The notes beneath the pieces were generated by a model that worked only from the letters and a program-made list of their open reading frames with translations, had not been told where the DNA came from and did not search any database. Below are positions 24,108 through 40,762 of a stretch of DNA of 64,000 nucleotides, piece after piece. A program made the translations under genes and the position numbers. Each line of letters starts with the position of its first letter. Positions within the stretch are counted from its first letter, which is position 1. This DNA is from Nocardia ninae NBRC 108245 (GTDB lineage: Bacteria > Actinomycetota > Actinomycetes > Mycobacteriales > Mycobacteriaceae), in NCBI RefSeq assembly GCF_007990755.1, contig NZ_BJXA01000047.1, positions 1 to 64,000 on the forward strand. The letters run 5' to 3'.

Positions 24108-24141
24108 CTCGGAGCTCGCTGCCACGGCAGCGGGCTCCGAG
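24108..24141 (+). terminator. 16-bp hairpin after the amidase gene
   Basis: Positions 24108-24123 pair with 24126-24141, with a single T-G wobble and a minimal loop, starting 14 bp past the stop of the amidase gene. It also lies beyond the 3' end of the convergent HAD gene and may act in both directions. Confidence 0.7.
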
Positions 24142-24314
24142 TTAGTTCACGACAAGTGATCAAGTGCAACCCGGCGTATCCCCGACTCTCGACCGATGTC
24201 ATCGGCTCTGGCATCCGAGTTGCTTCGCCCAGTCGCTGGACCCATAGCCGGGCAGCGAGGGGCACGCCGGAATCGCCTGGGCGCGTGCGGCAGTCGCGCG
24301 CCAGGGTTACCCGC

Positions 24315-25145
24315 TCAGATCCACCAGCGTTCGAGCACGCGGGCAACGCCGTCGTCGGAGTTGGATTCGGCGACCTCGTCCGCCGCCTCTTTGGCTTCGG
24401 CGTGCGCATTCGCCATCGCGACACCGTGGCCGGCCATGGTGAGCATCGGCACGTCGTTGGGCATGTCGCCGAACGCGACGATGTTCGCGGCCTCGACGCC
24501 GAGGCGCTGCGCGACGATCGACAGGCCGGAGGCCTTGGTGACACCGGGTGCGGACAGTTCGATCAGTCCGTGCTCGGTCGAGTAGGTGATGTCGGCGCGC
24601 TCGCCGATCAGCGGCGCCAGCACGGTGCGCATGTCGGAGCTGCGGGCGCCGGGTAGTCGGATCAGCATCTTGATCGCGGGTGCGTCGACGACCTCGTTGC
24701 GGGCCACCGTGGTGTCGTCCGGATTCAGCCAGGCGTGCTCGTACAGCGGCGAGCTCACGAACTGCGGGGTGACCGCGTCGTGCGCGCTCTCCCCGACCCG
24801 CTCGGCCGCGAGCCCGCACCCCGGCAGCGCCTCCTCGGCCAGGTCGGCGATCCAGGACAGGGTGTCCACGTCCAACGTCATGCTGGCCAGCACCCGATCG
24901 GTCGCGCTGTCGTAGATGACCGCCCCGTTGCCGCACACGCACAGCGGCGCGTAGCCGAGCCCGTCGACGACCGGGTCTATCCAGCGCGGCGGGCGTCCGG
25001 TGGCGAGCACGAACGGCACGCCGTCACCGATCAGCGCGTCGACCGCGGCCTTGGTGCGCGCGGTGACCCGCTCGTCGTGGTCGATGAGGGTGCCGTCGAC
25101 ATCGGTGGCCACCATCTTCGGCTTGGGCAGGTGCAGGAGGGTCAC
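24315..25145 (-). CDS. HAD-superfamily (Cof-type) phosphatase
   Basis: The protein has 276 aa. Motif I, DVDGTLID (15-22), supplies the nucleophile Asp15 and acid Asp17. Thr in VLATGRPPRW represents motif II, Lys159 or its neighbourhood in AIKMLIRL is the likely motif III lysine region, and GDMPNDVPML near residues 236-245 is motif IV. The C2-type cap lies between (about 85-190). Family members dephosphorylate sugar phosphates or related small molecules; the specific substrate is unknown. The start is GTG at 25143-25145. M. tuberculosis Rv3813c occupies the same place near Rv3811, so it is probably the orthologue. Confidence 0.88.
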   Translation of the reverse strand: MTLLHLPKPKMVATDVDGTLIDHDERVTARTKAAVDALIGDGVPFVLATGRPPRWIDPVVDGLGYAPLCVCGNGAVIYDSATDRVLASMTLDVDTLSWIADLAEEALPGCGLAAERVGESAHDAVTPQFVSSPLYEHAWLNPDDTTVARNEVVDAPAIKMLIRLPGARSSDMRTVLAPLIGERADITYSTEHGLIELSAPGVTKASGLSIVAQRLGVEAANIVAFGDMPNDVPMLTMAGHGVAMANAHAEAKEAADEVAESNSDDGVARVLERWWI

Positions 25146-25229
25146 CTATTCCATCCTGCCGGACAACCATCTGGAAGTGGCGGGCGTGTCGTGCTGCGCA
25201 CAGGAACCTATCGCTCGACGCCCGAGCGG

Positions 25230-26384
25230 TTACGAAGGTGGCGGACGCCGAACGCCGTCGTCCTCAGCTTTCTGCGGCTCGGAAGATGGTGGCTGCCGGA
25301 CCGTCTCGTCGTCGGGCGCGGGTTGCGGACGCGCCTCCTGACCGCTGGGCGTCTCGGCGGGCGCGCTCGAAGCAGCTTGTGGCTCTGGCCGTGGCCCCGC
25401 AGCCGCACCACTCGGGGTTCGGGTGGGTGCGCCCCGAGCAGCTTGCGGCTCTGGCGGCGACGATTCGGCCTGGCCACGCTGTGGCATGGCACCGGATTGT
25501 GCGGGTCCGCTCCCGCTGGCCGGTGGCGCAGCAGGCACCCACCCGCCCTGTCCGCTCGGCGCCGGGGGCTGGGCGGACAGATTCCAGCCAACCTGTGGTG
25601 CTGAAGGCTCCTCAGCGACCTTCTCGTCCGGCACCGCGCCACCAGATTGCGCGGGCACACCCCGAACGGGTTGGGGCGAGGGTGTAGTGACCTGATCGGT
25701 GGGATCCGCGGACGCGGAGTGCGCAGGAGGTTGGGCGGGCGAGTCCCAGGCGGCTTGTGGTGCGGGTGGCTGGTGCCAGGTCTGATCGGAGATACCCGTT
25801 GGTGCCGCCTGCTGCCAGGGCGGGCCGGGGTAGGGGTATCCGTACTGCTGGGGGATGGCGGCGGCGGGACTGTGTGCCAACCAGCGGGAGGTGGGCGGAA
25901 GCAGGGCGAGTATCGCGGTGGCGACGGGGAAGATCAACCCGATCAAGCTGCCCGCACTGCCGCTGATCACGCCGAGCCCGTCCGAGGAACCATCGATGGA
26001 ACTGACGAGCGCGAACCCGACGATCTCCGCGACGACCACCGTGACACAGCCGACGACGACGAGCAGCCGGCCGAACGATTTCCTGCTGAACATCGCGACC
26101 GCGCCGACGCCGAGCACGACCGCGATCACCAGCGACAGCACGCCGGACACGATGGCCCAGGTCTGAAACCAGTCCTGTGAAAACAGCCCGGATGTGTCGT
26201 AATCCTGCAGTTGCCAGCCGATGAACCCGAACGCCAAACTGATTCCGCCACCGAGCAATTGGCCGATACTGCCGACGCACGCCAGCACCCCGGCAGTCAC
26301 CGCGGTTGCCCCGCTCGGCGCGGGAACTCCGGCCGAATACGCCGGATATGGGTTGTATCCCCCGGGATATTGCGGATAACTCAC
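25230..26384 (-). CDS. Membrane protein with long Pro/Ala/Gln-rich C-terminal region, unknown function
   Basis: I do not recognise a named family. The 384-aa product starts VSYPQYPGGYNPYPAYSAG, a Pro/Tyr/Gly-rich cytoplasmic lead. About four transmembrane segments follow (about 27-55, 75-103, 112-137 and 145-172). From about 185 to the end it is low-complexity Pro/Ala/Ser/Gln. The GTG at 26382-26384 has AAGGGGG close upstream and was chosen over a start 48 bp earlier. The APSGATAVTAGVLAC block at its N-terminus resembles that of the protein at 15403-15984. Such proteins are common in Nocardia, but no role is known to me. Confidence 0.7.
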   Translation of the reverse strand: MSYPQYPGGYNPYPAYSAGVPAPSGATAVTAGVLACVGSIGQLLGGGISLAFGFIGWQLQDYDTSGLFSQDWFQTWAIVSGVLSLVIAVVLGVGAVAMFSRKSFGRLLVVVGCVTVVVAEIVGFALVSSIDGSSDGLGVISGSAGSLIGLIFPVATAILALLPPTSRWLAHSPAAAIPQQYGYPYPGPPWQQAAPTGISDQTWHQPPAPQAAWDSPAQPPAHSASADPTDQVTTPSPQPVRGVPAQSGGAVPDEKVAEEPSAPQVGWNLSAQPPAPSGQGGWVPAAPPASGSGPAQSGAMPQRGQAESSPPEPQAARGAPTRTPSGAAAGPRPEPQAASSAPAETPSGQEARPQPAPDDETVRQPPSSEPQKAEDDGVRRPPPS

Positions 26385-26543
26385 GACTCCCCCTTCGACG
26401 CGTCGCACCGCCCGCGCACCTATGTGCCGCAAGAATAAAGGACATGCCGAACCCCGCGTGACACGCGCGACCGGGTCATCGTCCTTATGATCAGGGGCTA
26501 ATACTCGACGCTGGTCCGTCCAGCCGAAAGACCATGAGGACTG

Positions 26544-27521
26544 ATGACCGGCTTCCTGCTACGACGCGCGCTTCACTATGTCGTGCTGTTGCTGCTGGCG
26601 TCGTTCCTGACCTTCAGCCTGGCGTCGCTGACGTTTCGCCCGCTGGACAGTCTGGAACAACGCAACCCGCGCCCACCGCAGGCGGTGATCGACGCCAAGG
26701 CGGAGGAGTTACACCTCAACGACCCGATCCCGCAGCGCTATATCACCTGGCTCAAGGGGATCCCGCAAGGGGATTTCGGCAAAACCCTGGCCGGTCAGCC
26801 GGTGAGCGAGGAGCTGCCGCGCCGGGTCGCGGTGAGTTTGCGGCTGCTGATCCTGGGTTCCCTGGTCGGCACGGTGCTCGGTGTGCTGATCGGTGCGGCG
26901 GGCGCCATCAGGCAATACAAATTCAGTGACTACTTCACCACGGTGATCTCGCTACTGGTGTTGAGCACGCCGGTGTTCCTGCTCGCAACATTGTTGAAAT
27001 ACGGTGCGCTGGAAATCAATTCGCTCACCGGCTCGCAGATATTCCTCTACACCGGCGAGACTTCGGCGAACCGTATCGACGGATTCTGGCCGCAACTGCT
27101 CGACCGCCTGCAGCATCTGGTGCTGCCGACGGCCGGTCTCGCCCTCGGCGGTATGGCGGGCTACAGCCGCTATCAACGCAACGCGATGCTCGACGTGCTG
27201 CAAAGCGATTTCATTCGCACCGCCCGCGCCAAAGGCCTGACTCGGAGCAAAGCGCTCTACAAGCACGGTTTGCGCACGGCGTTGATTCCCATGGCGACCT
27301 TGTTCGCCTACAGCCTGCTCGGCTTGATCACCGGCGCGACGTTCACCGAGAAGATCTTCGGCTGGCACGGCGTCGGTGAGTGGCTGGTGGATTCGATCAA
27401 TGCCCAGGATCTGTACGTGGTGGTCACGGTGACCGCGTTCGCCGGACTGGTGGTGCTGGTGTCGGGCCTGCTCTCCGATGTGGTGCTGGCGATTCTCGAT
27501 CCCCGGGTGCGTGTGCGATGA
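26544..27521 (+). CDS. dppB: Peptide/nickel-type ABC transporter permease, DppB family
   Basis: This 325-aa protein has about six membrane helices. The first is at 10-30, followed by the large loop typical of DppB/OppB (about 35-95). The EAA motif region reads RTARAKGLTRSKALYKHGLRTALIP (about 225-250) and should dock the ATPase. The ATG has GAGGACTG immediately before it. The stop overlaps the next gene by four bases (ATGA). It is the first gene of an importer operon that continues to 37784. The imported solute is probably an oligopeptide or another large solute recognised by the four downstream binding proteins. Confidence 0.92.
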   Translation: MTGFLLRRALHYVVLLLLASFLTFSLASLTFRPLDSLEQRNPRPPQAVIDAKAEELHLNDPIPQRYITWLKGIPQGDFGKTLAGQPVSEELPRRVAVSLRLLILGSLVGTVLGVLIGAAGAIRQYKFSDYFTTVISLLVLSTPVFLLATLLKYGALEINSLTGSQIFLYTGETSANRIDGFWPQLLDRLQHLVLPTAGLALGGMAGYSRYQRNAMLDVLQSDFIRTARAKGLTRSKALYKHGLRTALIPMATLFAYSLLGLITGATFTEKIFGWHGVGEWLVDSINAQDLYVVVTVTAFAGLVVLVSGLLSDVVLAILDPRVRVR

Positions 27522-28441
27522 CTGAAGCCGTCGAAATCATCGTCCAGGGTGCGCCCGAACCGGCGGCGGCAGGCCGGAGCAAGCTGGTGCTGCGCAGGTT
27601 TCTGCGCAACAAGCCCGCCGTCATCGGCGCGGCGATACTGATCCTGCTGTTCATCGCCAGCTTCGCGTTGCCGCCACTGCTGAAATACGACTACCAGCAG
27701 CTGGATTACACCGCCCTGCTGAAGCCGCCGAGCGCCAAGCATCCGTTCGGCACCACCCAGATCGGGCAGGACGTACTGGCGCAGACCCTGCGCGGCATGC
27801 AGAAGTCGCTGCTGATCGGCCTGTGCGTGGCGCTGGTCTCCACCACCATCGCCGCGACGGCGGGCGCGATGGCCGGGCTGCTCGGCGGCTGGACCGACCG
27901 CGCGATCATGTGGTTGGTCGATCTGCTGCTGGTGGTGCCGAGCTTCATCATCGTCGCGCTGTTCGCGCCGCGCACTAAGGGCAGCGGATCGATCCTGCTG
28001 CTGATTCTGCTGCTCAGCCTGTTCGGCTGGATGATCAGCGCACGCATCGTGCGCGGCTTGACGCTCAGCCTGCGCGACCGCGAATTCGTCAGGGCCGCAC
28101 GGTATATGGGCGCACCGACGCGCACGGTCATCGTCAGTCATATCCTGCCGAACATCGCGTCGATCCTGATCATCGACACCACGCTGGCGGTCGGCGCGGC
28201 GATCATGGCCGAAACGGGGCTCAGCTTCCTCGGTTTCGGTGTGCAGCCGCCGGATGTCTCGCTCGGCTCGCTGATCGCGTCCGGCACCAAGTCGGCGCTC
28301 ACCTATCCCTGGCTGTTCCTGTTCGCCGGTGGCCTGCTGATCACCATCGTGTTGTGCGCCAACCTGGTCGGTGACGGACTGCGCGACGCATTCGATCCCG
28401 GCGCCAAGCGGGCGCGCTCGAAGAAGAAGGCAAAGGTATGA
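27518..28441 (+). CDS. dppC: Peptide/nickel-type ABC transporter permease, DppC family
   Basis: The product has 307 aa. An N-terminal OppC/DppC segment ([16 protein letters not shown]) precedes the first helix, and five more helices follow. [19 protein letters not shown] (about 70-88) is the characteristic DppC loop, and [21 protein letters not shown] is the EAA-type coupling region. ATGA overlaps at both ends (27518-27521 and 28438-28441) indicate translational coupling with dppB and the ATPase. It forms the channel heterodimer with DppB. Confidence 0.92.
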
Positions 28442-30318
28442 CGGGCGCTGACCCCACCGAGAAGGTCGTGGTCGAGAAGAACTTCACCGCACCGCTGCTG
28501 GAGGTCACCGACCTTCGCGTCTCCTTCCCCAGCGAGGAGGGCCGCATCGAGGCGGTACGTGGCGTCAACTACACCGTCTCCGACGGTGAGGTGCTCGCCA
28601 TCGTCGGCGAATCCGGCTCCGGCAAGTCCGTGTCGTCGCTCGCGGTGATGGGCCTGCTGCCGGAGCAGGCGCGGATCGGCGGCTCGATCCGGCTGCGCGG
28701 CCGCGAACTGCTCGGCCTCGGCGATCGCGAATTGTCCAGGCTGCGTGGCAGTTCCATCAGCATGGTGTTCCAGGACCCGCTCTCGGCGCTGACCCCGGTG
28801 TACCGAGTCGGCGAGCAGATCGCCGAAGCCCTGCTGGCGCACGGCAAGATGAGCAAGACCGAGGCGGCGGACCGGGCGGTCGAGCTGCTCGGCCTGGTCG
28901 GTATCGGCGAACCCGAGGTGCGCGCCAAGGCTTTCCCGCACGAGTTCTCCGGCGGCATGCGCCAGCGCGTGGTCATCGCCATGGCCATCGCCAACGATCC
29001 CGCGCTGATCATCTGCGACGAGCCGACCACCGCGCTCGATGTCACGGTGCAGAAGCAGATCCTGAACCTGCTGCGCAAGGCGCGCGATATCACCGGCGCG
29101 GGCGTCATCATGATCACCCACGACATGGGTATCGCGGCCACACTCGCCGACCGGGTCGCGGTGATGTACGCCGGGAAGATCGTCGAAACCGCCACCACCA
29201 CTGAGCTTTTCAGTGCACCGAGGATGCCGTACACGGTGGGCCTGCTCGGCTCCATTCCCCGGATGGACCGCCCGGCCCGCCAGCCGCTGATCCCGATCTT
29301 CGGCGCACCACCCGCCATGCACGCGCTGCCGCCGGGCTGCTCGTTCGCGCCGCGCTGCCCGATCTCCATCGATGAATGCCGGGTCGCCGAGCCGCCGTTG
29401 GAGAAGACCAACCCCGGGCACGCCGCCGCCTGCATCCGCACCGCGGAGGTCGGCACGGACGACCTGTTCGAGGCGTATCGGCAGGAAGTCACCGAGCCGA
29501 GGGTCGAGGCCGAGGTCAGTGCGCAAGTGGTGCTGCGGGTTTCGGAGTTGGTGAAGACCTTCCCGATCACCGCGGGCATCCTGTTCAAGCGCCGTAAGGG
29601 CGAGATCCGCGCGGTCGACGGCATCAGCTTCGAGGTGCACGCGGGCCGCACGCTGGCGCTGGTCGGCGAGTCCGGTTCCGGGAAATCCACGACGCTCAGC
29701 CAGATTCTCGACCTGGTCCGGCCGGAATCGGGCACCATCGAGATCATGGGCAGCGACGTCGCGACCCTGACCAAGGCACGCAAGCGTGAGATCCGCCGGA
29801 AGATGCAGATCGTCTTCCAGGATCCGACCGCGTCGCTGGACCCGCGCCTGCCGATCTTCGACGCGCTGGCCGAGCCGATGCGCATCGACGGACGCGGACG
29901 CGACGAGATCAGCCGCCGGGTACCGGAACTGCTCGAGCAGGTCGGCCTGCGCCGCGATCATGCTGAGCGCTATCCCGCCGACTTCTCCGGCGGCCAGAAA
30001 CAGCGCATCAGCATCGCCCGCGCCCTCGCGCTGGACCCGGAGCTCCTGGTGCTCGACGAACCGGTGTCCTCACTGGACGTCTCCATCCAGGCTGGTGTGC
30101 TGAACCTGTTGCGCGACTTGCAGATCGAGCGCGGACTGTCGTATCTGTTCGTCTCGCACGACCTGTCCGTGGTGCGCAACCTGGCCCACGATATCGCGGT
30201 GATGTACCGCGGCAAGATCGTCGAATCCGGCCCGGCGGAACAGATTTTCGCCGATCCACGGCACGAGTACACCCGCGCGCTCATCGACGCGGTGCCCGTG
30301 CCTGCCGTCAGCCGATAG
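28438..30318 (+). CDS. Fused double-ATPase subunit of peptide ABC importer (DppD-DppF)
   Basis: This 626-aa protein has two complete nucleotide-binding domains in one chain. Domain 1 (about 20-345): Walker A GESGSGKS (57-64), signature FSGGMRQR, Walker [13 protein letters not shown], and the oligopeptide-transporter C-terminal region with the Cys-rich [14 protein letters not shown] segment that in some homologues binds Fe-S. Domain 2 (about 360-626): Walker [10 protein letters not shown] near 410, signature FSGGQKQR, Walker [13 protein letters not shown]. The fusion replaces the separate DppD and DppF subunits. Overlap with dppC by ATGA. A strong AAGGAG follows its stop and serves the first binding-protein gene. 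Confidence 0.93.
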
Positions 30319-30330
30319 AAGGAGAGCGCG

Positions 30331-32019
30331 ATGCCGATCCGAGCGAGCCGAAGGCCGGCATTGCGCTGGGCGATACCGGTGGTCGCGCTGAGCCTGATCA
30401 CGGCGGGTTGTGGCGCCGGTGACACGCCCTCGACCGAGGGCGTGTCGGGCGCGATCGGCTCCACCAGCGACATCAACCCCAAGGGTGTCGACGAGTTGCG
30501 CGACGGCGGGAACCTGCGGCTGGCCACCACCTCGTTTCCCGCCAACTGGAACACCCTGTCCACCGACGGCAACGACGGCGAGATCGCCGACATCGAACGA
30601 CCGTTGATGCCCCGCGCGTTCGACACCAACGCTGCGGGTGAGCTGACGGTCAACCACGACTACTTCACCGATGTCCAGCTCACCAACACCAGCCCCCAGC
30701 AGGTCACCTACACGATCAACCCGAAAGCCGTTTGGTCCGACGGCAATCCGATCACCTGGGAAGACATCGCCTCGCAGGCCAAGGCACTCAACGGCACCGA
30801 CAAACGCTTCCTGATCGCCATCACCGTCGGCTTCGACCGAGTGGAGAAGGTCGAGCGTGGCGTCGACGACCGGCAGGCCGTCATCACGTTCCGTCAGCCC
30901 TTCACCGAATGGCGCGGCCAGTTCGCGGGCAACATGTCGCTGTTCCCCAAGTCGGTGACCGCCGACCCGGAAAGCTTCAACAAGGGTCTCGTCGACAACA
31001 TGGGGCCGACGGCGGGCCCGTTCCTCGTCCAGTCCACCGATCGCGGCCAGGGCCGAATCGTGCTGGGCCGCAACCCGAACTGGTGGGGCGCCAAGCCGAA
31101 GCTCGACACCATCACCTACACCGTGCTCGACCGCAACGCCTGGGTCGGCGGCCTGCAGAACAACGAGCTCGACGCGGTACTGCTCAGCAACCTCGACGAC
31201 GCGACGACCGTGCGCAGGTCCTCGGGCGTCGTCGTCCGCCGCGCACCAGGTAACCGCTGGCGGCACATCACCTTCAACGGCGCACCCGGCTCCATTCTCG
31301 CCGATCCCGCTCTGCGCGTTGCAATCTCGAAGGCGATCGACCGCCAAGGCATCGCCACCGCGGTGCAGAACGGTCTGGTCGAGCAGCCGAAACCGCTGAA
31401 CAACCACGTCTTCCTGGAGGGCCAAACCGGCTATCAGGACAACAGCCTCGGCTTCGATCCGGACGCCGCCGCAAGGGAACTCGACGCACTCGGCTGGAAG
31501 CTCAACGGCGACACCCGCGAGAAGGACGGCCGCAAACTGGTCATCCGGGACGTCATGTACAACGACGACACCTGGGTCCAGATCGCCCGCATCATCCAGC
31601 AGAACCTCGCCCGGATCGGCGTCGAACTCACCATCGACACCAAGCCCGGCGCGGGCTTCTTCACCGACGTCATCATCCCCGGCGACTTCGACACCGCCCA
31701 ATTCTCCTACATCGGTGACGCCTTCCCGCTGAGCAGCATTCCGCAGACCTACGGCTACAACCCCGGCGACTGGCAGAACAACTTCGGCCACATCGGCTCC
31801 CCCGAACTCAACGCCCTGATCGATCGCACCCTCTCCGAACTGGACCCGAAGAAGGCGATCGAGTTGGCCAACGAGGTCGACCGCAAGGTGTTCGAGGAGG
31901 GGCATTCGTTGCCGCTGACCCAGTCGGAAGGGAACTGGGGCGTGCGCGCGGACATCGCCAACTTCGGGTCACCGGGGTTGGCGTCGTATGACTACACCAA
32001 GATCGGATTTATGAAGTGA
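30331..32019 (+). CDS. Solute-binding lipoprotein of peptide ABC importer, family 5 (copy 1)
   Basis: The protein has 562 aa. The lipobox ITAGC puts the lipidated cysteine near residue 27. A family 5 solute-binding domain fills the rest, with PKAVWSDGNPITWEDI and the SPELNALIDRTLSELDPKKA region typical of the DppA/OppA fold. It captures the substrate outside the membrane and delivers it to the permease pair. The ATG has AAGGAGAGCG upstream. It is the most divergent of four tandem paralogues (for example, DRNAWVGGLQNNELDAVLLSNLD here against KLDTLTFSVL-type wording in the others). Its stop overlaps the next start (GTGA). Related mycobacterial proteins include peptide-binding DppA and LpqW, so a lipid or glycolipid ligand cannot be excluded. 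Confidence 0.9.
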   Translation: MPIRASRRPALRWAIPVVALSLITAGCGAGDTPSTEGVSGAIGSTSDINPKGVDELRDGGNLRLATTSFPANWNTLSTDGNDGEIADIERPLMPRAFDTNAAGELTVNHDYFTDVQLTNTSPQQVTYTINPKAVWSDGNPITWEDIASQAKALNGTDKRFLIAITVGFDRVEKVERGVDDRQAVITFRQPFTEWRGQFAGNMSLFPKSVTADPESFNKGLVDNMGPTAGPFLVQSTDRGQGRIVLGRNPNWWGAKPKLDTITYTVLDRNAWVGGLQNNELDAVLLSNLDDATTVRRSSGVVVRRAPGNRWRHITFNGAPGSILADPALRVAISKAIDRQGIATAVQNGLVEQPKPLNNHVFLEGQTGYQDNSLGFDPDAAARELDALGWKLNGDTREKDGRKLVIRDVMYNDDTWVQIARIIQQNLARIGVELTIDTKPGAGFFTDVIIPGDFDTAQFSYIGDAFPLSSIPQTYGYNPGDWQNNFGHIGSPELNALIDRTLSELDPKKAIELANEVDRKVFEEGHSLPLTQSEGNWGVRADIANFGSPGLASYDYTKIGFMK

Positions 32020-33707
32020 CGAAACCGAGCACCCGGATCTCCACGCTGGGTACACGTTTGGCAGTACCGGCACTAGCGTTGGGCCTGGTGCTGTCCGGGT
32101 GCTCGAGCTCGGACGAGAGCGCCGACGACGGGGCGGCCGCCGCGCTGGGCACGACCAGCGACATCAACCCGCACCCCGTCGCCGACCTGCGCGACGGCGG
32201 CAATCTCCGCTTGGCACTGACCACACTGCCGGAGAACTGGAACGCCCTGCACACGGATGCGACGGGCGAGGTCGGCAGCATCGCGCGGCCGATGATGCCG
32301 CGCGCTTTCAAGACCAGCGCCTCCGGCGAATTCTCGGTCAACACCGACTATTTCACCGACGTCGTGCTGTCGAGCACGGACCCGCAGCAGGTCACCTACA
32401 CGATCAACCCGAAAGCCGTCTGGTCCGACGGCAGCCCGATCACCTGGGAAGACATCCGATCCCAGGCCAATGCCCTCAGCGGCGCCGACAAGGCGTACCT
32501 GATCAAGCTGACCAACGGTTTCGACCGGGTGGCGAAGGTCGATCGCGGCGTCGACGACCGGCAAGCCGTCATCACCTTCAAGCAGCATTACGCCGATTGG
32601 CGTGGTCAGTTCTCAGGCAACGCCTTCCTGTACCCGAAGTCGGTGACCGAGTCCGCGGAAGCTTTCAACAAGAGCCTGCTCAACGGCATCACGCTGACCG
32701 CAGGGCCGTTCCTCGTGCAGTCGGTGGACCGCGCCCAGGGCCGGGTCGTGCTCGGCCACAACCCGAAGTGGTGGGGTGACAAACCCAAGCTGGATACCCT
32801 CACCTTCTCGGTGCTCGCCTCCGAAGCCATCATTCCGGCCTTGCAGAACAACGAGATCGACGCGGTCGGCATCGCGTCCATCGATGACATGAAGACCGCA
32901 CGCGACACCGCCGGGGTCGTCATCCGCCGCGCACCGGGCAACAGTTGGTCGCACCTGACCTTCAATGGCGCGCCGGGTTCCATCCTCGCCGATCCCGCGC
33001 TGCGCGTCGCACTGTCGAAGGCCATCGACCGGCAGGGCATCGCGACCGCCGTGCAGAACGGTCTGGTGGCGGAACCCAAGCCGCTGAACAATCATGTGTT
33101 CGTCGAAGGCCAGGTCGGCTACCGGGACAACAGCCTGCCCTTCGATCCGGCCGCCGCGGCCAAGGAACTCGACGCGCTCGGCTGGAAGCTCAACGGTGAC
33201 GTCCGGGAGAAGGACGGGCGGAAACTGGAAATCCGCGACATCATGTATAACGCCCAGAGCTGGGTGCAGATTGCGCAGATCATCCAGCAGAATCTCGCGC
33301 AGGTCGGCGTCAAGCTGGTCATCGAAACGAAGCCGGGCCGCGGCTATTTCTCCGATGTCATCAAGCCGGGCAATTTCGACGTGGCGCAATGGATCTGGTC
33401 GAGCGACGCCTTTCCGTACAACGGACTCCCGCAGATCTACGCCTACAACCCGGACGATCTGCAGGGCAACTACGGCCGCATCGGTTCTCCCGAGATCAAT
33501 GAGCTCATCGAGCGAACCCTCCTCGAACTCGACCCTGAAAAGGCCATCGACCTGGCCAATCAGGTGGACCGGAAGGTGTTCGAGATCGGGTTCTCGCTGC
33601 CACTGGTGCAATCCACCGGCAACGTGGCTGTCCGCGCGAACCTCGCCAACTATGGCGCACCCGGCTTGGCCTCCTACGACTACACCAAGATCGGCTTCCT
33701 GAAGTAA
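32016..33707 (+). CDS. Solute-binding lipoprotein of peptide ABC importer, family 5 (copy 2)
   Basis: This 563-aa protein has a signal peptide with lipobox VLSGC (cysteine at about 29), a Ser/Asp-rich linker, then the family 5 domain. It shares long identical blocks with copies 1, 3 and 4, including QVTYTINPKAVWSDG, PLNNHVFVEGQ-like loops, and the C-terminal ASYDYTKIGFLK. The GTG at 32016-32018 overlaps the stop of copy 1 by four bases, a coupling not shared by copies 3 and 4. A local difference is YFSDVIKPGNFDVAQWIWSS near the predicted binding cleft. This copy carries the divergent substitutions VVLSSTDPQQV where others have VQLTNT. Confidence 0.9.
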   Translation: MTKPSTRISTLGTRLAVPALALGLVLSGCSSSDESADDGAAAALGTTSDINPHPVADLRDGGNLRLALTTLPENWNALHTDATGEVGSIARPMMPRAFKTSASGEFSVNTDYFTDVVLSSTDPQQVTYTINPKAVWSDGSPITWEDIRSQANALSGADKAYLIKLTNGFDRVAKVDRGVDDRQAVITFKQHYADWRGQFSGNAFLYPKSVTESAEAFNKSLLNGITLTAGPFLVQSVDRAQGRVVLGHNPKWWGDKPKLDTLTFSVLASEAIIPALQNNEIDAVGIASIDDMKTARDTAGVVIRRAPGNSWSHLTFNGAPGSILADPALRVALSKAIDRQGIATAVQNGLVAEPKPLNNHVFVEGQVGYRDNSLPFDPAAAAKELDALGWKLNGDVREKDGRKLEIRDIMYNAQSWVQIAQIIQQNLAQVGVKLVIETKPGRGYFSDVIKPGNFDVAQWIWSSDAFPYNGLPQIYAYNPDDLQGNYGRIGSPEINELIERTLLELDPEKAIDLANQVDRKVFEIGFSLPLVQSTGNVAVRANLANYGAPGLASYDYTKIGFLK

Positions 33708-33733
33708 CTACGCAGCATTTCTGCGGAAAGGAG
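33705..33733 (+). repeat. Intergenic leader repeat, copy 1 (small hairpin plus ribosome-binding site)
   Basis: A 29-bp segment from the stop of binding-protein copy 2 to the AAAGGAG of copy 3 recurs at 35417-35445 with three differences. It includes the stem CGCAG/CTGCG (33711-33725) directly before the SD. It marks the duplication unit and may shape translation of the downstream gene. Confidence 0.7.
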
Positions 33734-33739
33734 CGGACC

Positions 33740-35419
33740 ATGCGGGTTCGTTCATTGACCATTCGACTGGCGATTCCGTTGCTCGCCATCGGTTTGATCG
33801 CGGGCGGATGCGCCGCCGACGACACCGACGCACCGGCGGGTTCCACTGCCGCGCTCGGCACCACGAACGACATCAATCCGAAGGATGTCAGCGAATTGCG
33901 CGACGGCGGCAATCTGCGCCTCGCGCTCAGTGCCCTGCCGCAGAACTGGAACGGTCTGCACAACGATGGAAACGACGGCGACACCGCCTCGCTGCTGCGG
34001 CCGATGCTGCCGCGTGCCTTCAAAACTGATGCAGCGGCAGCGCTTTCGGTCAACACCGACTACTTCACCGATGTCCAGCTGACCAACACCGAACCCCAGC
34101 AGGTCACCTACACGATCAATCCCAAAGCCGTCTGGTCCGACGGCAGCCCCATCACCTGGGAAGACATCCAGTCTCAGGCCAATGCCCTCAGCGGTACCGA
34201 TAAATCTTTCCTGATCGCCATCAGCAATGGGTTCGATCGGGTGGAGAAGGTTGAACGCGGCGTCGACGAGCGACAGGCCGTCATCACCTTCAAACGGCAC
34301 TATGCCGACTGGCGTGGGCAGTTCGCGGGGAACTCGTTCCTCTATCCCAAGTCGGTCACGGCGACACCTGAGGCGTTCAACAAGAGCCAGCTGCAAGACA
34401 TCACCTTGACGGCGGGCCCGTTCCTCGTCCAGTCGGTCGACCGGGCGCAGGGCCGAGTTGTCCTCGGCCATAACCCCAAGTGGTGGGGCGACAAGCCGAA
34501 GCTCGATACCCTCACCTTCAGCGTCCTCGACAATGCCGCACGCTTGCCCGCGCTGCAGAACAACGAGATCGACGCGGTCGGCCTGGCCAGCAGGGACGAG
34601 CTCAAGTCCGCGCGCAGTACACCCGGCATCGCTATCCGGCGTGCGCCCGGAAACAACTGGTCGCACTTCACCTTCAACGGTGCGCCGGGTTCGGTGCTCG
34701 CCGACGCCGGTGTGCGCGTTGCCATCTCGAAGGCCATCGACCGGCAGGCCATCGCCACCGCGATCCAGAACGGTCTGGTAGAGGACCCGAAGCCGCTGAA
34801 CAACCATGTCTACCTGCAGGGGCAGGAGGGTTATCGGGACAACAGTCTCGGCTTCGACCCGGCCGCCGCGGCCAGGGAACTCGACGCACTCGGCTGGAAA
34901 CTCAACGGTGACGTCCGGGAGAAGGACGGGCGGAAACTGGAAATCCGCGACGTCATGTACAACCAGGACGTCTGGGTGCAGATGGCCCAGATCATTCAGC
35001 AGAATCTGGCCCAGATCGGCGTCAAGTTGAACATCGAAACCAAGCCGGGCACCGGGTTTTTCACCGATGTGATCCAGCCGGGCAACTTCGATGTCGGCCA
35101 GTGGGCCTGGTTGGGTGATCCGTTCCCGCTGAGCAGCCTCAACCAGATCTACGGCTACAACCCGGACGACCTGCAGGGCAACTACGGCCGCGTCGGATCC
35201 CCCGAGCTCAATGCGCTGATCGAGCAGACGATTTCGGAACTCGACCCGAAGAAGGCCGTCGAGCTGGCCAATCAGGTCGACCGTAAGGTCTTCGAGTTGG
35301 GGCATTCGCTGCCGCTCATGCAATCGCCGGGCAATGTCGCGGTTCGCGACAATCTGGCGAATTTCGGAGCGGCGGGGCTGGCGTCCTACGACTACACGAA
35401 GATCGGGTTCCTGAAGTAA
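33740..35419 (+). CDS. Solute-binding lipoprotein of peptide ABC importer, family 5 (copy 3)
   Basis: The product has 559 aa, with lipobox IAGGC (cysteine at about 25) and the family 5 binding domain. It is very close to copy 4: both share the WAWLGDPFPLSSLNQIYGYNPDDLQGNYG-type region in the C-terminal lobe (WSWVG and LGSL in copy 4). The ATG follows AAAGGAGCG by 5-6 bases. It is separated from copy 2 by a 32-bp leader containing a small hairpin that recurs before copy 4. Probably the result of a recent duplication of a gene-plus-leader unit, supplying an extra receptor to the same permease. Confidence 0.9.
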   Translation: MRVRSLTIRLAIPLLAIGLIAGGCAADDTDAPAGSTAALGTTNDINPKDVSELRDGGNLRLALSALPQNWNGLHNDGNDGDTASLLRPMLPRAFKTDAAAALSVNTDYFTDVQLTNTEPQQVTYTINPKAVWSDGSPITWEDIQSQANALSGTDKSFLIAISNGFDRVEKVERGVDERQAVITFKRHYADWRGQFAGNSFLYPKSVTATPEAFNKSQLQDITLTAGPFLVQSVDRAQGRVVLGHNPKWWGDKPKLDTLTFSVLDNAARLPALQNNEIDAVGLASRDELKSARSTPGIAIRRAPGNNWSHFTFNGAPGSVLADAGVRVAISKAIDRQAIATAIQNGLVEDPKPLNNHVYLQGQEGYRDNSLGFDPAAAARELDALGWKLNGDVREKDGRKLEIRDVMYNQDVWVQMAQIIQQNLAQIGVKLNIETKPGTGFFTDVIQPGNFDVGQWAWLGDPFPLSSLNQIYGYNPDDLQGNYGRVGSPELNALIEQTISELDPKKAVELANQVDRKVFELGHSLPLMQSPGNVAVRDNLANFGAAGLASYDYTKIGFLK

Positions 35420-35445
35420 CTACGCAGCATGTCTGCTGAAAGGAG
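35417..35445 (+). repeat. Intergenic leader repeat, copy 2
   Basis: Near copy of 33705-33733, running from the stop of binding-protein copy 3 to the AAAGGAG of copy 4. The stem is reduced to GCAG/CTGC (35424-35436) because one outer base changed. Confidence 0.7.
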
Positions 35446-35451
35446 CGACCT

Positions 35452-37131
35452 GTGCGGCTCGGTTCATCGGTGACCCTTCTCGCGGTTCCCCTGCTGGCCA
35501 TCGGTTTGGTGGCCACGGGGTGCGGCTCGAACGACGAGGATGCGCCCAAGGGGGCGGTCGCCGCCGTCGGCACGACCAACGACATCAACCCCCACGATGT
35601 CGCTGATCTGCGCGACGGAGGCAATCTGCGGCTGTCGATCTCGGCGTTTCCCGCGAATTGGAACACGCTGTCCAACGACGGGAACGACTACGAGATCGGC
35701 AGCCTCGAACGCCCGATGATGCCGCGGGCGTTCCGCACCAATGCCGCGGGCGAGCTTTCGGTCAACACCGACTACTTCACCGATGTCCAGCTCACCAATA
35801 CCAACCCGCAACAGGTCACCTACACGATCAACCCGAAAGCCGTCTGGTCCGACGGCAGCCCGATCACCTGGGAAGACATCCGATCCCAGGCCAATGCGCT
35901 CAGCGGCGCCGACAAGTCCTTCCTGATCGCCATCAACAATGGGTTCGATCGAGTGGAGAAGGTCGAACGCGGCGTCGACGACCGGCAAGCCGTCATCACC
36001 TTCAAGCAGCATTACGCCGAATGGCGCGGGCAGTTCGCGGGGAACTCGTTCCTGGTTCCGAAAACGGTCACCGCGACGCCGGAATTGTTCAACACGAGCG
36101 AGGTCGACGGGATCGGGTTGACCGCAGGGCCGTTCATGGTGCAGTCGACCGACCGCGCACAGGGCCGAATCGTGCTGGGCCGCAATCCGAAATGGTGGGG
36201 TGACACACCGAAGCTCGACACCATCACCTACAGCGTCCTCGACAGTTCCGCCGACCTGCCCGCTCTGCAGAACAACGAGATCGATGTGGTCGGCCTCGCC
36301 ACCCGCGACGAACTGAAGACCGCGAAGAATACTGCCGGAGTCGCCATCAGGCGGGCACCGGGCAATGGTTGGAGCCATCTGACGTTCAACGGCGCGCCCG
36401 GGTCGGTGCTGTCGGATCCGAAACTCCGGGTGGCGATCTCGAAGGCCATCGACCGGCAAGGCATCGTGACCGCGATCCAGAACGGACTGGTCGAGGACCC
36501 GAAGCCGCTGAACAATCACGTGTATATCCAAGGACAGGCCGGTTACCAGGACAACAGTCTCGGCTTCGACCCGGCTGCGGCCGCCAAGGAGCTCGACGAC
36601 CTCGGCTGGAAACTCAACGGCGATGTTCGGGAGAAGGACGGTCGCAAGCTCGAGATCCGCGACATCATGTACAACGAAGACACCTGGGTACAGATCGCGC
36701 AGATCATTCAGCAGAACCTGGCGCAAGTCGGCGTGCGGCTGAACATCGAGACCAAGTCCGGTAAGGGCTTTTTCACCGAGGTGATCCAGCCGGGTGATTT
36801 CGATGTCGCGCAGTGGTCGTGGGTGGGTGACCCGTTCCCGCTCGGCAGCCTCAACCAGATCTACGGCTACAACCCGGACGACCTGCAGGGTAACTACGGT
36901 CGCATCGGCTCACCCGAGCTCAATGCTTTGATCGAACAAGCGGTTTCCGAGCTCGATCCGGCGAAGGCGATGAAACTGGCCAACCAGATCGACCGCAAGG
37001 TGTTCGAGGATGGCCACTCCCTGCCGCTGATGCAGTCCACCGGCAACGTGGCGGTGCGGGCCGACCTCGCCAACTACGGCGCGGCGGGCCTCGCGTCGCT
37101 GGACTACACGAAAATCGGTTTCCTGAAGTGA
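35452..37131 (+). CDS. Solute-binding lipoprotein of peptide ABC importer, family 5 (copy 4)
   Basis: This 559-aa protein starts with GTG, preceded by AAAGGAGCG. Lipobox VATGC places the lipid anchor near residue 24. The family 5 domain follows with the same landmarks as copy 3. It differs in the hinge and cleft loops (STDRAQGRIVLGRNPKWWGDTP and KSGKGFFTEVIQPG), which could alter ligand choice. Its stop overlaps the next gene by four bases (GTGA), tying the small membrane protein that follows to the importer operon. Confidence 0.9.
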   Translation: MRLGSSVTLLAVPLLAIGLVATGCGSNDEDAPKGAVAAVGTTNDINPHDVADLRDGGNLRLSISAFPANWNTLSNDGNDYEIGSLERPMMPRAFRTNAAGELSVNTDYFTDVQLTNTNPQQVTYTINPKAVWSDGSPITWEDIRSQANALSGADKSFLIAINNGFDRVEKVERGVDDRQAVITFKQHYAEWRGQFAGNSFLVPKTVTATPELFNTSEVDGIGLTAGPFMVQSTDRAQGRIVLGRNPKWWGDTPKLDTITYSVLDSSADLPALQNNEIDVVGLATRDELKTAKNTAGVAIRRAPGNGWSHLTFNGAPGSVLSDPKLRVAISKAIDRQGIVTAIQNGLVEDPKPLNNHVYIQGQAGYQDNSLGFDPAAAAKELDDLGWKLNGDVREKDGRKLEIRDIMYNEDTWVQIAQIIQQNLAQVGVRLNIETKSGKGFFTEVIQPGDFDVAQWSWVGDPFPLGSLNQIYGYNPDDLQGNYGRIGSPELNALIEQAVSELDPAKAMKLANQIDRKVFEDGHSLPLMQSTGNVAVRADLANYGAAGLASLDYTKIGFLK

Positions 37132-37784
37132 GTTTCGGATCAGGCCACCCGCTGGCCTATCCGAGCAGCGTGACGATCGGCGCCCTGGCGATTTGCCTCG
37201 CCTGGGCGCCATTCGGCGATCTGGACCAGGTGGCGGCGCTGGCGACGGTGGCGCTGGGGATCATCGGGTATTCCAGTTACCGGATCGCTGTTGCGCTCGG
37301 GTTTCTGGCGTTCTGGCCGTCTGGATCGGCTCGCACCGTCGGGGTTTCGCGTATCCGCCAGCAGCACCGGCTGCTCAGCCGATCCTGGCTGGAGATCAGC
37401 GGCACTGGTCGACCACGATGGCTCCCGGTCTATTTCGACCCCGCACTGATGACCATGACCGAAAGCCGCGCCGATCTCACCGATCGAATCATCCACGTCG
37501 CGGGCCGCCGTCTCTACCCCTCCGGCCGCATCCGCACCACGGAACCGCCAGGGCGACTGATCGATAACCCGTCCCGCCCCGACCCGAACGCCCCCACCCT
37601 CACCGCGTCCCGCCTACGCCGGCGCCTGCTCCTCGACGCCCAATCCACCGTCGCCGCCCCCTTCGCAGCCCTGTTGTGGATCTACGTCGACGGCGGCTCC
37701 TTCACCACCTTCCTCGCCGCCACCTGCGTCGCCGCCATCACCGCCCTCTGGCTCTCCGCTATCCGCGGCTCCGACCCGAGCTGA
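37128..37784 (+). CDS. Small membrane protein of unknown function, last gene of importer operon
   Basis: I do not recognise the family. The 218-aa product has two hydrophobic segments near the N-terminus (about 15-35 and 38-63), a basic central region (about 75-170) with a long soluble stretch including PRWLPVYFDPALMTM, and one or two hydrophobic segments near the C-terminus (about 172-212). The GTG start overlaps the stop of binding-protein copy 4 (GTGA at 37128-37131), so it is almost certainly translated with the importer. It might be an accessory or assembly factor, but that rests on position alone. Confidence 0.72.
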   Translation: MSFGSGHPLAYPSSVTIGALAICLAWAPFGDLDQVAALATVALGIIGYSSYRIAVALGFLAFWPSGSARTVGVSRIRQQHRLLSRSWLEISGTGRPRWLPVYFDPALMTMTESRADLTDRIIHVAGRRLYPSGRIRTTEPPGRLIDNPSRPDPNAPTLTASRLRRRLLLDAQSTVAAPFAALLWIYVDGGSFTTFLAATCVAAITALWLSAIRGSDPS

Positions 37785-37895
37785 ACCGCGAGCCGGGTCC
37801 GAGTCCTGGCGATAGGTCTCCGCAGCGCGGGACATGGCGGCGGCAAATCGAGGGTGGACTCTCCGTCGTGGCCCTATCGCTACGGCGAAACAAAT

Positions 37896-37906
37896 TGGTC
37901 TGACCA
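37896..37906. promoter_or_regulatory. FadR-type operator candidate
   Basis: TGGTCTGACCA is a perfect TGGT-n3-ACCA palindrome of the type bound by GntR/FadR regulators. It lies 37 bp upstream of the FadR-family gene, so autoregulation is likely. TTGACC at 37908-37913 could be an overlapping -35 element. Confidence 0.6.
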
Positions 37907-37942
37907 CTTGACCTCCTGACCTATAGGGCGCACAGTAGCGGT

Positions 37943-38671
37943 ATGGCTTTGCAACCTGTGGTCAAGCGGTCGGTGTCGGGGGATGTTTTCGAGCAGATCG
38001 CGGCGGATGTGCTGAGTGGGGAGTTGGTGCCGGGGGCGACGTTGCCGAGTGAGCGGCAGTTGGCGGAGGCGTTGGGGGTGTCGCGGCCTGCGGTGCGGGA
38101 GGCGTTGCAGCGGCTGGCGGCGGCGGGGTTGGTTGCGGTGCGGCAGGGGGATGCGACGACGGTGCTGGATTATCGGCGGGGGGCGGGGCTGGAGGTTTTG
38201 CCGCGACTGCTGGTGCAGGCCGGGGAGTTGGATCCGAAGGTGGCGCGCAGCATCTTGGAGGCGCGGCTGCACAACGGGCCGAAGGTGGCCGAGCTCGCGG
38301 CCGGGCGGCTGGGTGTGACGGATGCCGAGACAGTGGGCGCCCTGCTGGCGGGCTCGGTGGAAGCGCTTGCCGCGGAGGAGGATCCGGTCGCGCAGCAGCG
38401 GCATGCGATGGAGTTCTGGGATCACGTGGTGGACGCGGCCGACTCGATCGTGTTCCGGCTGATGTTCAACATGTTGCGCGCCGCTTATGAACCAGCGCTC
38501 GCGGCGCTGGCCCCGATCATGTCCGCCGAGGTGGGCAATGTCGCGGCCTACCGCGAACTGGCCGCCGCCATTGTGGCGGGCCGAGCACAAGAGGCCGCCG
38601 ATATCGCCCGAGCCCTGCTCGAGCCGGCGACCACGGCACTGATCGACGTCCTCGACGGACGCTTCACCTAG
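37943..38671 (+). CDS. GntR-family transcriptional regulator, FadR subgroup
   Basis: The protein has 242 aa. The N-terminal winged HTH includes [24 protein letters not shown] (35-58), nearly the FadR consensus. The C-terminal FCD ligand-binding domain (about 75-235) is all-helical, with His and Asp/Glu residues ([21 protein letters not shown]) that may bind a metal or carboxylate. The first 60 codons of the frame have an unusually G/T-rich codon style compared with the end. It stands 8 bp before a fatty-acid-hydroxylase-like gene and probably controls it in response to a lipid-derived acid. The ligand is not known. Confidence 0.88.
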
Positions 38672-38679
38672 GAAACAAC

Positions 38680-39396
38680 ATGACGAAACCCCATGCTTCC
38701 CAGCAGAATTCAGCCGAGACGAACGCACGGGCCCGAGTACGCAACGATGAGCGATCCTTGCGTCGCCGACTCACGCTCGACGCCGCGTTCCGCGAGTTTC
38801 TACGCCATCCCTCGCCATGGCTCATAGGGGTCACGCTGATCGCGGCCGTCGTCGGCCGAATCCTGGTGAGCGACTGGCAATCCACCGATCTCCTGGTGCC
38901 GGTGGTGATGCTCGCGGTGTTCCCGATCTTCGAATGGATCGTGCACGTCACCGTATTGCACTGGCGGCCGAGACAACTCGGACCGATTCCGATCGACAGC
39001 GAACTGGCTCGCAAACACCGGGAGCACCATGTCGATCCGCGCAATATTCCGCTGATCTTCATTCCGACCAAGACACTGTCGGTGCTGGTGGTGGTACTGC
39101 TCGCACTGGCCGCGTTCGCTTTCCCGCGCCTCGGTCTCGGCCTGACCTTCCTGATCACCATCACGGTCCTCGGCCTCGGCTACGAGTGGACGCACTACCT
39201 GATCCACACCGACTACAAGCCGAAAGGCGCGCTGTACCGGGCGGTCTGGCGGAATCACCGGCACCATCACTACAAGAACGAGCACTACTGGTTCACCGTG
39301 ACGACCTCCGGCACCGCCGACCGCCTCTTCGGCACCCACCCCGACCCCGCCACCACCGAAGCCTCCCCCACCGCCCGCAATCTGCACGCAGGTTGA
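38680..39396 (+). CDS. Membrane fatty acid hydroxylase / sterol desaturase family protein
   Basis: This 238-aa protein has four hydrophobic segments (about 46-64, 70-92, 132-150 and 155-178) and the conserved histidine clusters of the di-iron membrane hydroxylases: H89 and H94, HREHH (113-117), H172 and H176, HRHHH (193-197) and H202. All expected metal ligands look intact. It should use O2 to hydroxylate an acyl chain, sterol or carotenoid-like lipid in the membrane. The ATG follows AGGAAAC. Being 8 bp downstream of a FadR-type regulator suggests the pair handles a fatty-acid signal or modification. The substrate is unknown. Confidence 0.87.
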   Translation: MTKPHASQQNSAETNARARVRNDERSLRRRLTLDAAFREFLRHPSPWLIGVTLIAAVVGRILVSDWQSTDLLVPVVMLAVFPIFEWIVHVTVLHWRPRQLGPIPIDSELARKHREHHVDPRNIPLIFIPTKTLSVLVVVLLALAAFAFPRLGLGLTFLITITVLGLGYEWTHYLIHTDYKPKGALYRAVWRNHRHHHYKNEHYWFTVTTSGTADRLFGTHPDPATTEASPTARNLHAG

Positions 39397-39412
39397 TCGC
39401 GCAATCCACCGG

Positions 39413-39442
39413 AAAAGCCATCGCCCGAGGGCGGTGGCTTTT
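39413..39442 (+). terminator. Rho-independent terminator with T-run
   Basis: AAAAGCCATCGCCC (39413-39426) pairs with 39429-39442 with one T-G wobble and ends in TTTTT, the clearest classical terminator in the window. It follows the hydroxylase gene and insulates it from the copper cluster. Confidence 0.85.
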
Positions 39443-39496
39443 TCGTGCCCAGGCCTTCAGTGACCAGGCGCACTTCTCCCGCCGCGAAACAAGCTC

Positions 39497-39524
39497 TTGA
39501 CTCAGTACCCTAGGGGGGTATGGT
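39497..39524 (+). promoter_or_regulatory. Copper-responsive promoter with CsoR-type operator
   Basis: TTGACT (39497-39502) and TATGGT (39519-39524) form -35 and -10 boxes 16 bp apart. Between them, TACCCTAGGGGGGTA (39506-39520) matches the TACCC/GGGGTA pattern bound by CsoR copper repressors. It drives the CopZ-like gene starting at 39573. No csoR gene is in the window. Confidence 0.7.
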
Positions 39525-39572
39525 AACTAGCAGGAGCACGGCAGAGGCCGTCGCCGGAGTAGGAGAAACACC

Positions 39573-39782
39573 ATGAGCACCGCGATCACCGTGACCGTCA
39601 CCGGAATGACCTGCGGCGGCTGCGCCACGTCGGTGCGCGACGGGATCGGCCGCGTCTCCGGCGTCGACACCGTCACGATCGACCTGCCCACCGGCCAGGT
39701 CACCGTCGAGAGCGCGGCCCCGATCGAGCGCGACACCATCGTCGCGGCCATCGATCAGGCCGGCTACACCGTCGCCGACTGA
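39573..39782 (+). CDS. copZ: Copper chaperone CopZ (heavy-metal-associated domain)
   Basis: This 69-aa protein is a single beta-alpha-beta-beta-alpha-beta HMA domain. GMTCGGC (11-17) supplies the two metal cysteines, Cys14 and Cys17. It binds Cu(I) in the cytoplasm and passes it to the ATPase encoded downstream. The ATG follows GTAGGAGAAACACC with GGAG about 8 bases upstream. It is the first gene after the CsoR-type operator, so expression should rise with copper. A silver or other soft-metal role is possible. Confidence 0.9.
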   Translation: MSTAITVTVTGMTCGGCATSVRDGIGRVSGVDTVTIDLPTGQVTVESAAPIERDTIVAAIDQAGYTVAD

Positions 39783-39802
39783 CACCGGAAACGGAGCATC
39801 CG

Positions 39803-40762
39803 ATGAACGCAACCACCAAGTTCGCCGGCTTCGCCCTCGGCCTGGCCGCCGTCTTCGGGATCGCCATCGCCACCGGCGCGGCGATCGGCCCCGAGCCCGC
39901 AGCCCCCGAATCACACGCGCACGAGGCCGGGCCTGCGACCCCCGCCGCCGGAGAACCCAACGGCACGATGGCTACCAACGGCGGATATACGCTGCGCCTC
40001 GACACCGCACTCACCGCCGCGGCGCCGAATGTCGCGCTGCGTTTCCGCATCCTGAACCAGGACGGCGCACCGCTCACCCGCTACCAGCGCACCCACGACA
40101 AAGACTTGCACCTGATCGTGGTGCGGCGCGACATGACCGCCTTCCAGCACGTGCACCCCGTCCTCGGCGGTGACGGAACCTGGAGCGTCCCACTGGATCT
40201 CACCCGTGCGGGTGACTATCGAGTGTTCGCCGACTTCACCCCCGAGGGCGGCGACAACCTGACCCTCGGCACCGACCTGCGGGTGGCGGGCAACTACGAT
40301 CCGCGGCCGCTGCCGGTCGCGGCGACCACCAGCACGGTCGACGGCTACACCGTCACCCTCGACGGCACCGTCACCCCCGGCCAATCCTCGAAGGTCACGT
40401 TGTCCGTCAGCCGCAACGGCACGCCGGTCACCGACCTGCAGCCCTACCTGGCGGCCTATGGTCACCTCGTCGCACTGCGCGCCGCCGATCTCGCGTACCT
40501 GCACGTGCACCCCGACGGTCACCCCGGCGACGGTGTCACACCGGCGGGACCGGGCATCACCTTCTATGTCACCGCACCGAGTGCGGGCGACTACCGGCTG
40601 TTCCTCGACTTCCAGCACGAAGGGGTGGTCCGTACCGCCGAGTTCACGCTGACCGTCGGCCAGAGCACCGGGGCGGCGGAGTCCGCGACCCACGACGGGC
40701 ACGGCAGCACGCCACCGCCCGCTCCGGCACCCGGCGCCCCGGAACCGGCACACGGCCACTGA
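39803..40762 (+). CDS. Secreted or membrane-anchored His-rich protein with two tandem beta-domains, copper-associated
   Basis: The protein has 319 aa. The N-terminal hydrophobic helix (about 6-28) is a signal or anchor. Two similar Ig-like domains follow (about 58-170 and 175-292), each with a histidine-bearing segment: [10 protein letters not shown] with FQHVHP in the first, and AYGHLVAL with [12 protein letters not shown] in the second. The C-terminus is Ala/Pro-rich and ends in histidines (THDGHG, HGH). It is related to proteins often labelled YtkA-like or heavy-metal-binding, and I cannot assign an enzyme activity. It sits between copZ and copA (20 bp after copZ), so extracytoplasmic copper sequestration is a reasonable inference. 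Confidence 0.78.

Follow-up and report, generated by a model that had tools for sequence, protein, structure and literature searches.

The operon described here lies in Nocardia ninae NBRC 108245, within a stretch of 64,000 nucleotides (the window). It occupies positions 26544-37784 and contains two permease genes (oppB and oppC), a gene for a fused double ATPase (oppD), four genes encoding family-5 binding lipoproteins (S1, S2, S3 and S4) and a gene encoding a small membrane protein (Table 1). The ATG of oppC falls inside the ATGA overlap with the oppB stop; the Pfam, structure and N. suismassiliense L040 comparisons of OppC were read from 27515, one codon before this start. In the ATPase both ATPase domains are located in a single chain, and the oligo_HPY segment is cysteine-rich. 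The four receptors match SBP_bac_5 (PF00496) with E values of 2e-54 to 4e-58, contain no internal stops and show pairwise protein identities of 67.4-80.3% (80% for S3/S4 and 75% for S2/S4). The signal peptides of S1, S2, S3 and S4 end in TAGC, LSGC, AGGC and ATGC, respectively, which we take to be lipobox-like motifs, and a pattern search detected the lipobox pattern in 158 of 161 other receptors.

Table 1. Features of the importer operon in the window and the block in which it differs from N. suismassiliense.
Feature	Position	Strand	Description
OppB-type permease	26544..27521	+	orthologue of Rv1283c; Pfam PF00528/PF19300; BPD_transp_1; 8j5q_B, E 8e-130
OppC-type permease	27518..28441	+	orthologue of Rv1282c; Pfam OppC_N and BPD_transp_1; 8j5q_C, E 1e-122
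Fused OppD-OppF ATPase	28438..30318	+	orthologue of Rv1281c; two ABC_tran stretches and oligo_HPY; 8j5q_D, E 2e-237, aligned over 18-624
Receptor S1, group A	30331..32019	+	562 aa; SBP_bac_5; 98% to the first L040 receptor
Receptor S2, group B	32016..33707	+	563 aa; SBP_bac_5; 8j5q_A, E 5e-195
Receptor S3, group C	33740..35419	+	559 aa; SBP_bac_5; nearest relative found is the first receptor of N. tenerifensis L041, 89%
Receptor S4, group D	35452..37131	+	559 aa; SBP_bac_5; 8j5q_A, E 5e-203; nearest relative found is the second L041 receptor, 94%
Membrane protein closing the array	37128..37784	+	218 aa; both ends hydrophobic; without Pfam match
Block differing from N. suismassiliense	32017..37127	+	S2-S3-S4 here; two divergent receptors (groups F and E) in L040

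The gene spacing is operon-like. Overlaps of four bases join oppB to oppC, oppC to oppD, S1 to S2 and S4 to the membrane protein gene, and gaps of 12, 32 and 32 bases precede S1, S3 and S4, respectively. The first-pass annotation had recognized a single permease-permease-fused ATPase set followed by four full-length receptors and a membrane protein, with four retained lipoboxes and no stop; the open reading frames (559-563 aa for the receptors), the Pfam matches, the spacing and the four motifs agree with this description. A pseudogene reading of S1-S4 was ruled out by the lack of internal stops and by dN/dS values well below 1. A consensus scan, which is uninformative for an actinobacterium, detected no promoters and no terminator-like sites in 26300-38100 (6.7 were expected from shuffles), and no Rfam matches were found in 24000-40000.

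A short inverted repeat, CGCAG-N5-CTGC(G/T), is present at 33711-33725 and 35423-35437, between the receptor stop and the ribosome-binding site, and a copy also lies ahead of C or D receptors at several further loci. A GntR/FCD regulator gene (37943-38671) is located 158 bases downstream of the operon in the same direction and may encode its regulator; this gene was not seen in the fetched flank of many other loci. On the other side, positions 21242-24094 encode a 950-aa protein with a long degenerate proline/glutamine-rich repeat run and a putative amidase-like region.

The best solved relatives of OppB, OppC, OppD and S4 are the Mycobacterium tuberculosis proteins Rv1283c, Rv1282c, Rv1281c and Rv1280c, respectively (E values in Table 1). 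The search of the receptors covered S2 and S4, and S2, the odd receptor, also has Rv1280c as its best solved relative. By sequence, the operon is thus the counterpart of M. tuberculosis OppABCD (Rv1280c-Rv1283c). Dpp, the name under which the system was first annotated, should be replaced by Opp, and a Dpp identity was ruled out, as the subunits match OppABCD far better than Dpp among solved relatives. In OppABCD-type importers the cysteine-rich segment after the first ATPase domain carries an iron-sulfur cluster, and the corresponding cysteines are present in the Nocardia ATPase, aligned with those of Rv1281c. The likeness to the M. tuberculosis system (PDB 8j5q-8j5u) comprises orthologous subunits, the receptor family and the gene order oppB-oppC-oppD-oppA with a fused D, the M. 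tuberculosis order being inferred from the Rv numbers of the solved chains. However, M. tuberculosis OppABCD has a single receptor, and the Nocardia operon is called a variant of it because four receptors are present instead of one. In an order-wide sample, the 34 matching genomes of the sister genus (g2), which we take to be Mycobacterium, each contain one receptor match at E 1e-80.

The membrane protein (218 aa) has no Pfam match even at E 10. Of the 80 Nocardia loci, 76 have it after the receptors and four are cut off before its position; three genomes from a different family (G131, G226 and G277) also encode it just 3' of the receptor. The order-wide sample contains 25 genomes that match it, none of them from g2. 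The membrane protein is likely a partner of this transporter.

A permease scan, which may leave out the genome of the window itself, identified 449 encoding stretches; the 80 best were retained, and all of these belong to Nocardia, the nearest being N. suismassiliense L040. In 77 of the 80 loci the contig is long enough to show what lies behind the permease-ATPase set, and all 77 have receptors there. Three loci in which the contig ends before the receptors (L046, L054 and L075) and one with a single receptor in two frames (L079) were left out, and a tree of 165 receptors was constructed from the remaining 76 loci and the window. S1, S2, S3 and S4 belong to four groups on this tree (A, B, C and D, respectively); further groups are X, E, F, G and H, with one unplaced row (d), giving about nine groups in total. 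Groups were picked as clades, 13 F rows missed at the first pick being added by hand, and the third receptor of L042, which is in two frames and unlabelled on the tree, was later typed F. Local supports are 99 (A), 99 (B), 96 (C), 87 (D), 99 (E), 98 (F), 96 (G), 100 (H) and 100 (X). Two-frame split receptors occur in L042 (third receptor), L079 and G096 (C4:102930-104602) and reflect decay or sequencing error.

A rooted tree was built from 52 of the 165 receptors, with ten of 24 g2 receptors as the outgroup. All Nocardia receptors fall on one side (100/100), which places the receptor expansion in the Nocardia line, and they form two deep families, E-F-G-H (100/100) and A-B-C-D-X (97/96). Group D, the one with a support of 87 on the larger tree, is weakly supported and does not form a single clade here. 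Recent amplification and an assembly artefact were ruled out, the window copies being 67-80% identical and falling into separate groups common to other species.

The 77 arrays, with counts corrected by hand for L042, contain one receptor in 17 cases, two in 33, three in 25 (L042 included) and four in two, the window and N. aurea L055. A wider sample of 118 Nocardia genomes contains none without a match: 24 have one, 57 two, 33 three and four have four, with the split gene of G096 counted twice; in two of these last four genomes just three matches lie in the array. The first-pass annotation had regarded other strains with a single copy and no fitness difference as evidence against its reading. 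As far as copy number is concerned such strains exist, since single-receptor operons make up 17 of the 77 Nocardia arrays, and four copies are therefore not required in the genus.

The 77 arrays represent 23 group combinations, and no group occurs twice in one array. Group A, to which S1 belongs, comes first wherever it is present; B or X takes the next place, followed by F, C and D in this order and finally by E, G or H. The pairs and sets B/F, B/X, D/E and E/G/H never occur together, so that their mutual order is undefined. No order conflict was found in 118 ordered pairs, nor in 45 when each combination was counted once, and with both ways of counting each of 20,000 shuffles within arrays produced at least one conflict. 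Because related genomes inflate the shuffle test, further genomes were examined. Forty stretches were fetched; 23 of them duplicate loci of the first set, which left 17 new ones, and receptors were assigned to groups by best match. Thirteen of the 17 new arrays have at least two receptors and provide 33 ordered pairs; all 30 pairs that could conflict agree with the order (hand count). The new arrays include three new combinations (AXE, AXF and ACE), and none of the 94 arrays (77 plus 17) has more than four receptors.

The genomes of the window and N. suismassiliense are very similar. Outside the array, 111 of 117 fragments of 500 bp align to N. suismassiliense over at least 350 bases with a median identity of 97%, two of the 111 being below 85% and the other six fragments not reaching 350 aligned bases. 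Of two 6-kb stretches from elsewhere in the N. suismassiliense genome, one shows 94-97% identity and the other 90% over its first 2.2 kb, and the two organisms are therefore considered close but not identical strains. OppB (DppB) is identical in 325 of 325 residues, OppC (DppC) in 307 of 308 and the ATPase in 623 of 626. The array, however, is A-B-C-D in the window and A-F-E in L040. Measured per 100 bases, the two sequences are 92-98% identical throughout S1; starting at the S1 stop codon the values fall to 52-75%, and at the start of the membrane protein gene they recover, with 91-95% over most of that gene; all ten 500-bp fragments in 32000-37000 have 71-83% identity to N. suismassiliense, against the median of 97% outside. 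The breaks between the two arrays thus sit at gene boundaries. As judged from these sequences, the pair is a natural receptor swap behind a nearly identical permease and ATPase, and it suggests that one channel accepts different receptors. That the receptor set varies even between near-identical genomes lay beyond the sight of the first-pass annotation, which was made from the window alone.

The GC3 of the second and third L040 receptors is 76.8% and 79.5%, respectively, compared with 87.7% in the first. Foreign base composition was dropped as proof that the L040 block was imported, as the GC3 of the groups varies widely across other genomes. From 19532 on, L040 also contains about 1.2 kb of extra DNA between the membrane protein and GntR genes, which is lacking in the window and reads, by eye only, like an MFS-kind transporter gene.

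A quick tree of the 3.8-kb permease-ATPase DNA of 76 arrays (without L042) requires no fewer than 32 changes of array type, and the presence of D and of E changes at least 13 and 11 times, respectively. In 29 pairs the permease DNA is 95% identical or more, and nine of these pairs differ in array type. The left edge of the differing part lies no more than about 80 bases from the end of the last high-identity shared gene in nine of the 11 pairs examined, with L091/L094 and L094/L095 taken at the end of A, and in the same nine pairs the right edge lies no more than about 80 bases from the end of the last unshared receptor; L076/L106 and L083/L100 are too diverged for an edge to be placed.

Pure differential loss could produce such a pattern if an ancestor had six or more ordered receptors and each lineage deleted another subset, without any exchange. 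The absence of order conflicts means that every array fits one master order. In addition, the E and F receptors of L040 have dS values of 0.63 and 0.88 to their nearest known kin (L170 and L171), against 0.28-0.48 for the neighbouring genes; these values put the two receptors no nearer to their kin than the adjacent genes, which loss from a longer array would also fit. However, the window and L040 are about 97% identical, and under pure loss their recent ancestor would need A, B, F, C, D and E together, a set larger than that of any array observed.

Third-position divergence was compared with that of the ATPase gene. DppB, DppC and HAD, with 58 pairs each, never exceed twice the ATPase value, whereas the receptor groups exceed this limit in 10 of 49 pairs (A), five of 14 (F), one of 32 (D), none of nine (E), none of three (X), none of two (C) and none of one (B). 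The membrane protein is raised as well, in 12 of 58 pairs. A few lineages account repeatedly for the raised pairs, which are therefore interdependent: each of the six A pairs shown includes L098 or L102, and the five F pairs are drawn from L090, L091, L094 and L095. A uniformly raised synonymous divergence of the receptors was not found, the group medians being 0.89-1.71 of the ATPase value. In group F the third positions of L091 and L094 differ by 8.3 times the ATPase divergence, which loss alone does not give. The raised pairs favour exchange over pure loss, and loss as the sole process appears rather unlikely.

Exchange between copies of one array also probably occurs. S2 and S4 share an identical run of 86 bases (about 32388-32474 in S2 and 35812-35898 in S4), and within this 40-codon stretch 88% of the codons are identical, compared with 42-65% in the remaining stretches downstream of the signal peptide. 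The run is probably the product of gene conversion.

The receptors are under purifying selection. Compared with near orthologues, dN/dS is 0.07-0.13 for S1, 0.14 for S2, 0.08-0.10 for S3 and 0.06-0.08 for S4, and each copy is kept, given this range of 0.06-0.14; the earlier proposal that selection maintains all four is borne out. Between the window copies dN/dS is 0.14-0.30.

M. tuberculosis OppA binds glutathione and bradykinin, as stated in the cited passages (PMC2923189). Docking on a homology model named 12 residues of the glutathione pocket, and the mutants G109S, N110A, N230G, D494N and F496D lost more than half of the binding, according to the same passages (PMC2923189). Thirteen reported contact positions were mapped on the array. 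The group-separating score at these positions is 0.97, compared with 0.52 at random positions (P 0.00065), and their total entropy also differs from that of random positions (P 0.015). S1, S3 and S4 retain the equivalents of G109, N110, N230, D494 and F496. Among the window receptors S2 alone differs there, with A at the G109 equivalent and a gap at N110, in a 109-110 loop that has indels and is softly aligned; in groups E-H a gap falls at N230, and D494 is replaced by S (or G). The receptor groups would accordingly be expected to differ in peptide range. The widened substrate range first proposed for the operon fits this divergence at reported peptide-contact positions, which supports that proposal as far as sequence can.

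We favour, with a probability of about 0.7, a single OppABCD-type importer served by interchangeable lipoproteins, a modular repertoire of constant order that would widen and re-tune the range of peptides taken up. S1-S4 would each be anchored outside the membrane and capture their own peptide spectrum, all four would dock on the same OppBC channel, and the fused OppD would drive uptake. About nine receptor groups would have arisen in the Nocardia lineage in constant order; loss or exchange of whole genes or of blocks would make repertoires differ, with hardly any change in the channel. The difference between the window and N. suismassiliense would then reflect exchange and not loss alone. A more specific form of this reading is held tentatively, at somewhat less than even odds: the array would be an ordered set of receptor cassettes, whole genes at constant positions that are swapped between lineages by homologous recombination at gene ends, re-tuning intake, possibly under the pressure of toxic or signalling peptides.

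Binding receptors are often more numerous than permeases. The copies could accordingly serve gene dosage, as redundant genes making more of one receptor, and the 80% identity of S3 and S4 and the identical S2/S4 tract would suit this; however, the copies belong to separate groups common to other species, the same group never occurs twice in an array and the changes that separate the groups cluster at reported contact positions, which makes dosage improbable. An equally improbable driver of the turnover is the entry of toxic or signalling peptides via the receptors, with lineages changing or dropping receptors to escape or to listen. The receptors vary and the channel does not, two-frame split receptors occur in L042, L079 and G096, and a toxic tripeptide enters Pseudomonas via particular DppA receptors in the cited parts of PMC4206461, but the low within-group dN/dS is unlike an arms race inside a group. 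That some receptors serve other permeases and share only an address in the array is very unlikely: the window genome does encode eight weaker DppB relatives, but each is at most 34% identical to the array permease, and the receptors adjoin this permease-ATPase set in all 77 loci that reach that far. The window genome contains four receptors of this kind, all in the array; the next relatives are at most 30% identical over part of their length, and receptors encoded elsewhere in the genome could also use this permease.

Multi-receptor peptide importers, in which several paralogous receptors accompany one permease unit as in the Nocardia operon, are already known. Borrelia burgdorferi has several receptors (OppA1-A5) for a peptide transporter, and the cited passages report three receptors in tandem at the opp locus and copy numbers that vary among Borrelia species (PMC5736914, PMC7822543, PMC6719511). 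The Borrelia system differs in having two permease pairs, two receptors on plasmids and expansion by duplication, and constant-order exchange is not described in these passages (PMC5736914, PMC7822543, PMC6719511). In Streptococcus pneumoniae five family-5 receptors with differing peptide preferences (AmiA, AliA, AliB, AliC and AliD) serve one permease (AmiCDEF), and the repertoire varies by strain as in Nocardia, AliC and AliD being present only in non-encapsulated strains; in contrast to Nocardia, AmiA alone has a locus number adjoining the permease genes, whereas AliA and AliB are encoded elsewhere and the deleted capsule locus contains AliC and AliD, according to the cited parts of PMC11192437. 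Pseudomonas aeruginosa DppBCDF likewise has one permease and five receptors (DppA1-A5) with differing preferences, four of them near the operon. Its receptors, however, are located upstream and do not form one run with the permease genes, the system transports di- and tripeptides, and the parts of the paper compared here do not describe modular exchange (PMC4206461). The literature matches listed for multi-receptor transporters and Nocardia among open-licence papers include no description of this Nocardia locus; what appears new, as not found described there, is the genus-wide, ordered, high-turnover array with swapped blocks.

Importers with several receptors raise the old question of what sets specificity and how specificity evolves. 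In the Nocardia arrays nature has in effect combined one channel with different receptors many times, and one pair of genomes joins a practically identical channel to different receptor sets. The receptor surface that docks on the channel, the cleft residues that set peptide range and the relation of repertoire to lifestyle are therefore testable.
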